This document shows, piece after piece, positions 11,576-15,350 of a stretch of 55,607 nt of DNA. The notes under the pieces are model-generated. The model was given only the letters and a program-made list of their open reading frames with translations, did not search any database and had not been told where the DNA came from. The position numbers and the translations under genes were made by a program. Source of the stretch: Gammaproteobacteria bacterium (GTDB lineage Bacteria > Pseudomonadota > Gammaproteobacteria > UBA6429 > Thiohalophilaceae); NCBI GenBank assembly GCA_015491815.1, contig WFVC01000196.1, positions 1-55,607 on the forward strand. The letters are read 5' to 3'. Every line of letters begins with the position of its first letter. Within the stretch, counting starts at the first letter, position 1.

Positions 11576-11688
11576 AACAGGCCGTTTTTCAGTCATACTG
11601 TTGAATAAATGAATACTCGGTATTTTACATGATATGTGCGCATGCGATATATACCGCCGCCACCCAATATTCAAACCGCATTAATAAT

Positions 11689-12201
11689 ATGAAAAACCTC
11701 AAAACCCGTTCATTAATGTGTTTACTGTTCATTAGCCTTTCAGTGTGTATCGTGGAACCGGCCTGCTCACAGCAGAATGTGGAATCCATTATGCAAACCA
11801 CTCTCGAGCGGTTTACACATGCAAATCCGGCGATTCAACGCGAACTCCAGCAATCTCCCGGTTATGCCGTCATTGACTGGCAAGCTAACAGTGGAAAGGG
11901 CATACTCGTTATTCGCGCAAAAAAACAACGGCATGCGATCACGCTTAGTCAGTTTGAACTGGAGCCGCACTGGCGCGAACGCGCATTCCATGCTCTGATC
12001 GTTTTCGCAACAAAAGATTATCTCGATAAACTTAAACCCGGCAAGTTCCGATTTGTAGCCGGCGTCAATATTCCTCTCGACTCAACCGATAAAAATATTC
12101 CGACACCCACGCTTAACCCTGACTTTACTATTTATATTTTAAATAAAAATAATACCGTTGAAACCGCTATTGCCCGAAGCATACAAATGCAGATAGATTG
12201 A
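11689..12201 (+). CDS. Small exported protein of unknown function
   Basis: The protein from the ATG at 11689 has 170 residues and begins with a Sec-type signal peptide (about 1-28, hydrophobic LMCLLFISLSVCIVEPACS). The frame is open from 11629, but the extra N-terminus is not signal-like. The segment QQSPGYAVIDWQANSGKGIL resembles the opening of SYLF/YSC84-like lipid-binding proteins, and the C-terminus TIYILNKNNTVETAIARSI is a beta-rich tail; I treat that resemblance as weak. Divergent from the btuF-like gene, with no obvious ribosome-binding site. Function unknown. Confidence 0.6.
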   Translation: MKNLKTRSLMCLLFISLSVCIVEPACSQQNVESIMQTTLERFTHANPAIQRELQQSPGYAVIDWQANSGKGILVIRAKKQRHAITLSQFELEPHWRERAFHALIVFATKDYLDKLKPGKFRFVAGVNIPLDSTDKNIPTPTLNPDFTIYILNKNNTVETAIARSIQMQID

Positions 12202-12269: not shown

Positions 12270-12416
12270 AGGAACCTCTGATTAATTCCGTTCACCCTGA
12301 GCTTGTCGAAGGGGGAATCATATAAATTATGATTTTACAATGCTTAGCGTTCATGGTTCGACCCTTCGTCAGGCTCAGGACTTCACCACGAACGGTGGAA
12401 TTAATCAGAGCTTCCT
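12270..12416. repeat. Palindromic dispersed element, copy 2 (147 bp)
   Basis: The arms 12270-12289 and 12397-12416 are 20-bp inverted repeats with one mismatch, and share the terminal core CTCTGATTAATTCC with the copies at 193-330 and 15218-15286. The interior again has the GAGCTTGTCGAA / TTCGTCAGGCTCAG motif. It occupies the gap between 12201 and 12609. The remaining bases to 12608 hold the promoter region of the SoxB-like gene; I see no ORF there. Confidence 0.85.
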
Positions 12417-12608
12417 TCAATCATATTGATACACAACAGTGTGAAACACCTGCCTCACCCTAACTACGACTATAAACCATCTTTCTTCAGTCGATGGAAT
12501 AAATTTTTCTCCGCTGTGTCTTAATCTGTTGATCACGGTTCATGATCTCTACCGGCAAGCTGGAAGTATTGCCGTTATTCATCAATAAAATTTTTAAGGA
12601 TATCTGCC

Positions 12609-14408
12609 ATGAAAATAAAAAATGAAAAGAAACGATTTTTCTCTTTTCTATGCGGTTCGACACTCAGTTCGATACTGGCTCTGTCATCAATCCATCCCGC
12701 CATTGCCGGCGAACCGGACAGCGAAGATAGCGACGATGAAAATGAAGTTGAAATCACCCTGATTCATATCGGCGACATACACGGTCATCTGGATTCGCGC
12801 GTCAATGTTCGCAGCGACAGCAACGGCCTCAGGGAAGGCGGACTGGCGCGAATCTACAGCAAGCTGAAAAAGATCCGCAAACATGCCGATCACAGCCTGA
12901 CCATCATGACCGGCGATACGATTCACGGCTCTGCTGAAGCCCTGTTCACCCAGGGCCAGGCTCTGGTCGATCCATTGAATAAATTCGGCATCGATGTGTT
13001 TGCGCCGGGTAACTGGGAATACGTCTATGGCACCAAACGTTTTCATGAATTATTTACCGGCAAAAAGCCGGGGGCAAACTGGAATGCGATTGCTTCCAAT
13101 CTTTATTACACCGGTGCGCCTTACGAAGATAAAATCGGCCAACGTGTTTTACCTTCCTACTGGATAAAAGACATCGCCGGTATCAAAATCGGCGTCATTG
13201 GCTTTACCACTGAACGCGGCCCGAAAGTTATCGGTTCAGAGGTAGTCGATGGCTTTGGCTTCAGCAAGGGCGATGATGAAATCGCGGAGCTCGTACCCTT
13301 GATGCGTGAAGTCCACAAAGTCGATCTGGTAGTGATGATCTCGGAACTGAATCTGGCTAACAACTACCGTCTGACTGAGGCCGTCCCCGGCGTTGACATT
13401 GTCTTTTCCTCCGACATGCATGAAGAAACACCGAAAATGATACGCAACAGCAATGGCACCGTACTGGTGGCCGAAGGCATGGACGGTTCCAACGTTGGCG
13501 AAATGCAAGTGGAATTCAAAAACGGCAAACTGGTCGAGATTGAATGGAAACAACACGCCATTGATACCCGCATTAAGGAAGATAAAAAAATCGCCAAACT
13601 GGTCGCCAAAATCAAGGCGCCTTTTTATGGCGATAGCTTTGTCCCGCATATCAACCCCATCAATGGCACAACACTAAATAAACCTCTGGATACGGTAATT
13701 GGCGCCGCTTCGGTTGATCTGCATCGCTCCAACTTTGCTCATGAAAACATGCCGGGCGTGGTCGAAGGCACTTCACATGATTTTCTCGCTGATGTTTTTC
13801 GTGACATGACTGGTGCGGATCTTGGTGTTATTCGCGGCTTCCGCTATGGCACCACCGTTGCCGCAGGCCCGATTACACTCGGTGATATTTATCACTTTGT
13901 ACCCATCGGTCCCTATCTGGCTTATGGTGAAGTTACCGGCAAACAGATCAAGGGCACCATCGAAAAACCGGCGGATGGCTCATTGAATCCGGATGTCGCC
14001 AAATGGGGCGGCGGCTGGCTGTTTGGCTGGAGCGGCCTGCGTTATGATCTTGATCCCTATCAGACACTGGGTAATCGCGCGAGCAATATTGAAATCTATA
14101 ATCGCGCCACCGGCGTCTGGGAACCGCTTGATATGAACAAAACCTATACGCTGGCGGGATATAACTATGATTCCGAACCCAATCGCATCAACAAGGTTCC
14201 GGCAAAAAATGTCATTCAGCTAAAAGAAGCAGATGGTTCCGGCCTGACCGTAGTCAATGCCGTTGCCCGCTATCTGCAAAGCAGCGATGCGAATCCACAA
14301 CAGAATCGCATTACCCTGATGCGGCCTCTGCCGGATCTGCGCCCGCTGCTCGGCTTTCCGATGATTCAGTCCATATTTGGCGCGCGTGAGGATCTGGCGC
14401 CGTACTAA
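12609..14408 (+). CDS. SoxB-like / 5'-nucleotidase-family exported protein with altered metal ligands
   Basis: This 599-residue exported protein has a signal peptide (about 1-33, ending AIAG), an acidic stretch (EPDSEDSDDENE), an N-terminal calcineurin-like metallophosphatase domain (about 48-290) and a C-terminal 5'-nucleotidase/SoxB domain (about 340-580). SoxB-like features are GSAEALFTQGQALVDPLNKF, GNWEYVYG (SoxB has GHWEFTYG) and GFRYGT before a NPD motif and an aromatic WLFGWSGL. The first metal motif DIH is intact (D56, H58) and N135 stands in the GN(H/W)E site. However, the usual SH is SE (E246) and the usual GGHTH is SSDMH (D269, H271). It is therefore a divergent relative, not a safe SoxB; no soxAXYZ lies nearby. 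The DsrE-like gene follows after 106 bp. Confidence 0.75.
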   Translation: MKIKNEKKRFFSFLCGSTLSSILALSSIHPAIAGEPDSEDSDDENEVEITLIHIGDIHGHLDSRVNVRSDSNGLREGGLARIYSKLKKIRKHADHSLTIMTGDTIHGSAEALFTQGQALVDPLNKFGIDVFAPGNWEYVYGTKRFHELFTGKKPGANWNAIASNLYYTGAPYEDKIGQRVLPSYWIKDIAGIKIGVIGFTTERGPKVIGSEVVDGFGFSKGDDEIAELVPLMREVHKVDLVVMISELNLANNYRLTEAVPGVDIVFSSDMHEETPKMIRNSNGTVLVAEGMDGSNVGEMQVEFKNGKLVEIEWKQHAIDTRIKEDKKIAKLVAKIKAPFYGDSFVPHINPINGTTLNKPLDTVIGAASVDLHRSNFAHENMPGVVEGTSHDFLADVFRDMTGADLGVIRGFRYGTTVAAGPITLGDIYHFVPIGPYLAYGEVTGKQIKGTIEKPADGSLNPDVAKWGGGWLFGWSGLRYDLDPYQTLGNRASNIEIYNRATGVWEPLDMNKTYTLAGYNYDSEPNRINKVPAKNVIQLKEADGSGLTVVNAVARYLQSSDANPQQNRITLMRPLPDLRPLLGFPMIQSIFGAREDLAPY

Positions 14409-14514
14409 ACCGCACCGGATTCGCGATCGTCTAACCTGTCTCGACATTTTCGATATGGGTTGGGCGCTATAAAACAAACGGTCCCGATAGCAACGCATAA
14501 ATTATGGAGACACC

Positions 14515-15108
14515 ATGAGATTAAACAAATATATTTTATTACTACTGGCCGGTAGTCTGATAAATGTCGCACAGGCTTCATCCCGTGACGACGATGATAA
14601 AGACATGCTACTGCCCTGTCCGCCTGCCGTGATTGAAAGTATCGATCAGCAATTCGGTCATGGCGCCAGTCTGCTCACCACCTGCACACAGAAACGTACC
14701 GAGGTAAAAGATGTTTTCGCCTGGAACTCGGCCGGCATCAACAGGAAAAAGAAACTCGCCCAGCAGGTTCACGTTACCCGCAACAGCGTAAACAATTATG
14801 AAAAACTCTATGCCATGAAAATCAACAGGGACTTCAAAGTTATCGCCATTGGTTATTCCGGTGGCGGTCGCTGGTTGTTAACGGATGAAGCCTACAACCG
14901 GACATACGGCGTGACCACCGGCAATCCTACCGCTGCACTCACCCAGTCACTGATCGAGCGGGGGGTTAAAGTTTATATGTGTCAGAACACCATGCGCGGC
15001 AATGGCTGGATCAGCAGCGATCTATTGCCCGGTGTAAAAATGGTGCCCTCCGGTGCGGTGGCGGTGCTTGATTTTGAACATCAGGGTTACCGATATATTG
15101 CTCCGTAA
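14515..15108 (+). CDS. Exported DsrE-family-like protein
   Basis: This 197-residue protein has a signal peptide (MRLNKYILLLLAGSLINVAQA), so it is periplasmic. The C-terminal half (about residues 100-197) follows the DsrE/YchN fold. It has a first strand DFKVIAIGYSGGGRWLL, the segment NPTAALTQSLIERGVKVYMCQNTMRGNGW with Cys156 at the usual sulfur-relay position, and the ending LLPGVKMVPSGAVAVLDFEHQGYRYI. Two further Cys lie near residues 35 and 61. DsrE-family proteins bind or relay sulfur, and periplasmic members accompany sulfur-compound oxidation genes. With the SoxB-like protein upstream this suggests a small periplasmic sulfur-related module, an inference. The start has TGGAGACACC upstream. 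A hairpin and a clear terminator follow. Confidence 0.7.
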   Translation: MRLNKYILLLLAGSLINVAQASSRDDDDKDMLLPCPPAVIESIDQQFGHGASLLTTCTQKRTEVKDVFAWNSAGINRKKKLAQQVHVTRNSVNNYEKLYAMKINRDFKVIAIGYSGGGRWLLTDEAYNRTYGVTTGNPTAALTQSLIERGVKVYMCQNTMRGNGWISSDLLPGVKMVPSGAVAVLDFEHQGYRYIAP

Positions 15109-15183: not shown

Positions 15184-15215
15184 AAATAGCCCCGCATTGG
15201 GGGCTATTTTTATTT
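15184..15215 (+). terminator. Rho-independent terminator after the DsrE-like gene
   Basis: A 10-bp stem (15184-15193 with 15200-15209, loop GCATTG) is followed by a T-rich tract to 15215. It ends the SoxB-like/DsrE-like transcript. Confidence 0.9.
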
Positions 15216-15217
15216 AG

Positions 15218-15286
15218 GGAACCTCTGATTAATTTCGGTTCACCCTTCGACAAGCTCAGGGCGAACCGAAATTAATCAGAGGTTCC
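15218..15286. repeat. Palindromic dispersed element, copy 3 (69 bp)
   Basis: The arms 15218-15241 and 15263-15286 are perfect 24-bp inverted repeats around a 21-base loop that holds the CCTTCGACAAGCTCAGGG motif. This short form has the same termini as the copies at 193-330 and 12270-12416 but a much smaller interior. Confidence 0.88.
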
Positions 15287-15350
15287 TTGGAAAATTACAA
15301 TGAAAAGCCATCCGCCATGCAGATGGTTATTACAAATCAGGAAATAATAT

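Follow-up and report, generated by a model that had tools for sequence, protein, structure and literature searches.

A locus in a gammaproteobacterial genome (GCA_015491815.1) raises two questions: whether a SoxB-like protein whose metal-ligand histidines have been replaced is a remodelled or a defunct hydrolase, and whether it forms a periplasmic sulfur-handling pair with the DsrE-like protein encoded next to it. The window, i.e. the whole stretch of DNA analysed (55,607 nucleotides of contig WFVC01000196.1), contains both open reading frames exactly where an initial annotation, made from the letters alone, had placed them (Table 1), separated by an intergenic gap of 106 bp. That annotation also had the two genes ending in one shared terminator, in agreement with a consensus scan that detected a terminator-like hairpin with a T-tail 3' of the DsrE-like gene and none on the + strand of the gap; approximately four such sites occur per shuffled region by chance, and the hairpin alone is no evidence of function.

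Table 1 Features of the soxB-like/DsrE-like locus, in window positions; fractions are counts among homologues covering the position
Feature	Position	Strand	Evidence
soxB-like gene	12609..14408	+	ORF, 599 aa; Pfam/NCBIfam matches
Motif I, D56-I57-H58, kept (predicted metal ligands)	12774..12782	+	Invariant, 95/95
Motif II, Asp103, kept	12915..12917	+	96/96
Motif III, Asn135, UshA-type (canonical SoxB: His)	13011..13013	+	Asn 96/96
Motif IV, Glu246 replacing metal-ligand His	13344..13346	+	Glu 95/97, His 2/97; Glu 85/85 in ED family
Motif V, D269-M270-H271, Asp for first GGHTH His, second His kept	13413..13421	+	Asp 86/97, His in the other 11/97; H271 96/96
His390, C-terminal domain, co-occurring with D269	13776..13778	+	(E,D,H) 78 vs (E,H,N) 10 homologues
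DsrE-like gene, product predicted to be exported	14515..15108	+	197 aa; Pfam DsrE; model and PDB matches; alignments
Terminator-like hairpin with T-tail, bidirectional	15184..15209	.	Consensus scan

The larger protein has a signal-like N-terminus ending ...AIA-GE and is predicted to be exported. Its metallophosphoesterase and 5'-nucleotidase C-terminal domains (Pfam Metallophos, 7e-9; 5_nucleotid_C, 1.2e-26), together with its fold, place it in the SoxB/5'-nucleotidase superfamily. The best low-rmsd PDB match of its AlphaFold model (mean pLDDT 91.7) is the SoxB of the SoxB-SoxYZ complex (4uwq_D; rmsd 3.1, TM 0.72/0.79), which superposes over the full length more closely than any other leading PDB match. 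NCBIfam SoxB (TIGR04486) is also the top-scoring named family, but the score of 178.8 bits lies far short of the 550-bit cut-off, whereas the genome's canonical SoxB on contig C44 (genome G000) reaches 872 bits. Fold, domain order, export, the GFRxGT region and motifs I and II are shared with the SoxB thiosulfohydrolases (Thermus 2wdc/4uwq), whereas GNWE, SE and SSDMH stand where SoxB has GHWE, SH and GGHTH, and the gene is not found with sox genes. Score, motifs and phylogeny together rule out membership of SoxB itself. The UshA/CD73/NadN 5'-nucleotidases have the two-domain architecture and N135 at motif III in common with the window protein, which differs from them in its replaced motif IV His and first motif V His and in its sulfur gene neighbourhood. 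The proposed likeness to SoxB and 5'-nucleotidases stands for the fold; it does not for GNWEYVYG, which had been read as a SoxB motif, as the canonical SoxB here reads GHWEF and N135 is UshA-type.

Aligned to the genome's own SoxB ORF, motifs IV (ISELNLANN) and V (FSSDMHEET) fall on SH and GGHTHD, with E246 at H312, D269 at H335 and H271 at H337, confirming the replacements first seen by eye. Asn135 falls on His194, while D56, H58, D103 and H271 are retained. The full set of seven dimetal ligands is not present, two His having given way to Glu and Asp. Standard His ligands at other positions, which the initial annotation had named as the result that would speak against it, were looked for and rejected: the family alignment has no conserved His besides H271 within residues 240-275, and the only near-invariant His across the ED family (Glu at motif IV plus Asp at motif V) are H58, H271 and H390. 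In the model, E246 and D269 come after strands 240-245 and 264-267, at ligand-bearing places in the fold. We take the assignment of residues to sites from the known architecture of the SoxB/5'-nucleotidase fold, in which Asp103 is presumably the bridging residue. On this basis site 1 would be kept (D56, H58, D103, H271), whereas site 2, formed by Asp and three His in SoxB, would by alignment consist of D103, N135, E246 and D269, all oxygen ligands. Lacking His, such a site might be empty of metal.

Searching 84,980 genomes with patterns built from motifs I and III, so that motifs IV and V played no part in the selection, yielded 80 loci, and the ligand counts are based on 97 homologues comprising these loci plus relatives. 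The 80-locus collection reveals a single ED clade spread over Pseudomonadota, Nitrospirota, Actinomycetota and Campylobacterota, and the organisms named among the scan matches are largely sulfur oxidisers. D56, H58, D103, N135, H271 and E272 are invariant in 85 ED proteins, R373, R412 and others are also kept, and the GFRYGT region is retained. H390 lies within an EGxSHD motif and is present in 78 of the 80 ED copies that reach it, with Asn at this position in a second group of paralogues, the E/H group, whose motif IV carries Glu and whose motif V still has its His (SAHTHE). Relative to the sister species, NG86 estimates were dN 0.085 and dS 1.07 for the soxB-like gene (ratio ~0.08) and dN 0.094 and dS 2.06 for the DsrE-like gene (ratio ~0.05), dS being near saturation in both comparisons; both genes are under purifying selection. 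Because E246 and D269 are conserved, the other ligands (D56, H58, D103, N135 and H271) are retained and H390 appears together with D269, the soxB-like gene does not look decayed, and ligand conservation and dN/dS together rule out a pseudogene. Between the two options originally put forward, a site remodelled with carboxylates or a loss of hydrolase activity, remodelling without decay is the part upheld, E246 and D269 being fixed in ~85 homologues; activity itself is weighed below.

SoxB and ED proteins are each monophyletic with 100/100 support, and the soxB-like protein falls outside the SoxB clade. In a second tree 73 of 74 ED rows were grouped at 100, the exception (L132_6) lying among E/H rows, and the E/H group joins the ED clade with only 89/68 support. 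The tree is compatible with a first step from His to Glu, followed by a His-to-Asp change accompanied by the gain of H390, although this order would depend on where the root is placed. The ED proteins form a genuine and conserved branch of the SoxB/5'-nucleotidase superfamily that seems not to have been described before. An E/H soxB-like paralogue is present in the window's own genome, split by a contig break (contigs C183/C178; L047:11558-12115, L046:1-1626). Plasmids carry distant 5'-nucleotidase-like relatives only (~24-29% identity). Two haloarchaeal plasmid '5'-nucleotidases' (L205:614-2398, L211:620-2398) have Glu at motif IV and SAHTHE, and the gene next to that of L205 is annotated as a rhodanese. 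Viral carriage was dismissed, as no relatives of the soxB-like protein were found on viral contigs.

Pfam, structural model and alignments agree with the call of the neighbouring gene as an exported DsrE-like protein with Cys156 at the sulfur-relay position. The Pfam DsrE match covers residues 114-196 (1.6e-8, 35.2 bits versus a cut-off of 22.7), and the AlphaFold model (mean pLDDT 81.7; at least 88 per block from residue 81 onward) matches MTH1491, ST0148, YchN and DsrEFH in the PDB. Cys156, in MCQNTMRG, occupies the conserved CxNTxR position, and a second Cys pair (C35/C57) lies in the N-terminal extension. A Cys is found at the relay position in 32 of 35 aligned linked DsrE proteins, the window protein counted. 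The conserved Cys is lost in DsrE genes of TsdA loci at L098:4096-4518 (Ser), L150:5438-5914 (Ser) and L101:5517-5942 (one of two). In other genomes the window's DsrE subfamily is mostly found away from soxB-like genes.

The pairing itself recurs. A single sister species (G001/L079) keeps the exact pair, in the same order with a gap of 189 bp, and across the family 30 of the 80 ED copies have a DsrE-like gene no more than 2 kb away, whether downstream, upstream, divergent or fused; the other 50 have none within 2 kb in the sequence examined, some contigs ending early. Co-occurrence, the absence of which the initial annotation had said would count against a module, was thus observed, and in L091 the soxB-like protein is naturally fused to a C-terminal DsrE domain. 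By comparison, 20 canonical SoxB loci from relatives contained neither a DsrE-like (0/20) nor a TsdA-like gene (Fisher one-sided p 3e-4 for DsrE linkage, and 5e-4 for the 44 ED copies with long flanks, the loci being non-independent in both tests), ruling out an attraction of DsrE to SoxB loci in general. One ED subclade has an operon tsdA-sulP-dsrE-soxB-like, seen at 14 of the loci L088-L104 and L150, and at 13 of these tsdB precedes it. Its TsdA matches 4wqc at 1e-51 with the aligned haem-ligand Cys present, and both of its cytochromes match the TsdBA fusion of Marichromatium purpuratum (5lo9), which differs in that hydrolase and DsrE domains are absent. TsdA is also linked to further ED subclades (L085, L087, L114 and L155). 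The literature searched on SoxB-like proteins with DsrE, TsdA with nucleotidases, and TsdA/TsdB with DsrE, drawn mostly from papers outside subscription, held no description of the tsdB-tsdA-sulP-dsrE-soxB-like operon. The association in the proposed two-protein module outside the Sox operon is upheld by the recurrent DsrE and TsdA linkage, the L091 fusion and the canonical loci, suggesting that DsrE and thiosulfate dehydrogenase as recurrent neighbours mark an unstudied periplasmic sulfur-processing module; the sulfur function claimed for it is a more tentative matter. Four loci encode an anti-sigma-like N-terminus fused to a DsrE domain (L082:503-1213 (-), L083:4596-5303 (+), L084:508-1203 (-) and L113:3461-4177 (-)). 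The N-terminal part is zf-HC2 in L082 and L084, near ED soxB-like genes, and an ECF-type sigma gene adjoins the fusion in L082, L083 and L113. The DsrE domain of these fusions may sense sulfur.

Fold, family, conservation of the replaced ligands and gene linkage are shown by the data above, whereas metal identity, catalysis, substrate and relay are inferred. Tentatively, and at somewhat less than an even chance, the soxB-like protein hydrolyses a thiosulfonate or polythionate and the DsrE-like protein serves as carrier. The enzyme would act on oxidised sulfur chains in the periplasm, cleaving the S-sulfonate end with release of sulfate, and the remaining sulfane sulfur would be carried by the DsrE-like protein, a Sox-like chemistry with a DsrE-type carrier in place of SoxYZ. 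Possible substrates would be a thiosulfonate on the Cys of the DsrE-like partner or the tetrathionate that TsdA produces. Two precedents make a thionate-handling role plausible. In Erythrobacter flavus 21-3, TsdA and SoxB convert thiosulfate to zero-valent sulfur via tetrathionate in a proposed pathway without SoxYZ (PMC7608252); the available portion of that report gives its SoxB-like proteins typical SoxB metal ligands and does not report an exported DsrE, whereas the window's genome lacks a detected TsdA. In Metallosphaera cuprina, the reactive Cys of DsrE3A accepts thiosulfonate from tetrathionate, although its partner is TusA and not a hydrolase, and the accessible part of the account does not report export (PMC4175335). 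In SoxB, carrier-bound thiosulfonate is engaged by the metal ions (PMC5336275). Three observations speak against a strict relay: three linked DsrE proteins have no Cys at the position of Cys156, the majority of ED copies lack a DsrE close by, and searches of the window's genome and of three same-genus relatives, two of them incomplete, gave no TsdA. The mostly separate occurrence of the window's DsrE subfamily and soxB-like genes elsewhere also counts against the favoured reading. The wider proposal is a periplasmic pathway of Sox type with exported DsrE instead of SoxYZ, a hydrolase with an all-oxygen site 2 instead of SoxB, and TsdA supplying the oxidative step in many lineages; it is put forward as a doubtful one.

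Other explanations differ in whether the protein hydrolyses anything, and what. Were the ED substitutions to abolish site 2, the protein could bind a sulfur anion or a partner without hydrolysis, perhaps in the role of a periplasmic receptor or chaperone. The replacement of two site-2 ligands and the regulatory nature of some neighbours (ECF sigma and anti-sigma-DsrE fusions by L082, L083, L084 and L113) agree with such silent binding, which is nonetheless unlikely: site 1 and N135 are invariant, the GFRYGT region and conserved Arg residues persist, and both altered positions carry carboxylates, not random residues, in all 85 ED copies. A periplasmic nucleotidase or other phosphoesterase of altered metal preference, with sulfur neighbours incidental or co-regulated, would account for Pfam domains identical to those of 5'-nucleotidases and for the GxRYG region that ED proteins have in common with the plasmid-borne relatives. 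The rank of SoxB as best-scoring named family, the recurrent TsdA, DsrE and SulP linkage and the prevalence of sulfur oxidisers among named organisms make it quite improbable.

A further alternative concerns the partner, with a periplasmic DsrE that reports sulfane sulfur and a linkage that reflects control of the soxB-like gene. The zf-HC2-DsrE fusions that L082 and L084 carry close to their soxB-like genes, the ECF sigma gene at L082 and the similar arrangements at L083 and L113 point in this direction, but most linked DsrE genes encode simple exported proteins with no anti-sigma domain and in L091 the enzyme and DsrE are fused directly, so that a sensor in place of a carrier seems a poor prospect. 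If the carrier reading is true, it would add a periplasmic thiosulfate/tetrathionate route where such genes resemble 5'-nucleotidases, and would help to explain the role of periplasmic DsrE proteins. The ligand change, fixed in a widespread family of sulfur oxidisers, with His to Glu at motif IV, His to Asp at motif V and a His gained in the other domain, would offer a way to test how dimetal hydrolases retune their chemistry.

The host genome carries soxY and soxA (contig C29) and soxB, and contig C108 holds what we read as a dsr cluster. With these genes in place, the pair would add to the sulfur-oxidation system and not replace it. Directly upstream of the pair (window 11629-12201) is a 190-aa ORF, possibly exported, without a Pfam match. 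Inverted palindromic repeats flank both genes (window 12270-12421 and 15212-15288), and their core, CCCTTCGACAAGCTCAGG, is a dispersed REP-like repeat, since it has 136 genome copies at up to one mismatch versus 0 for the reversed control.
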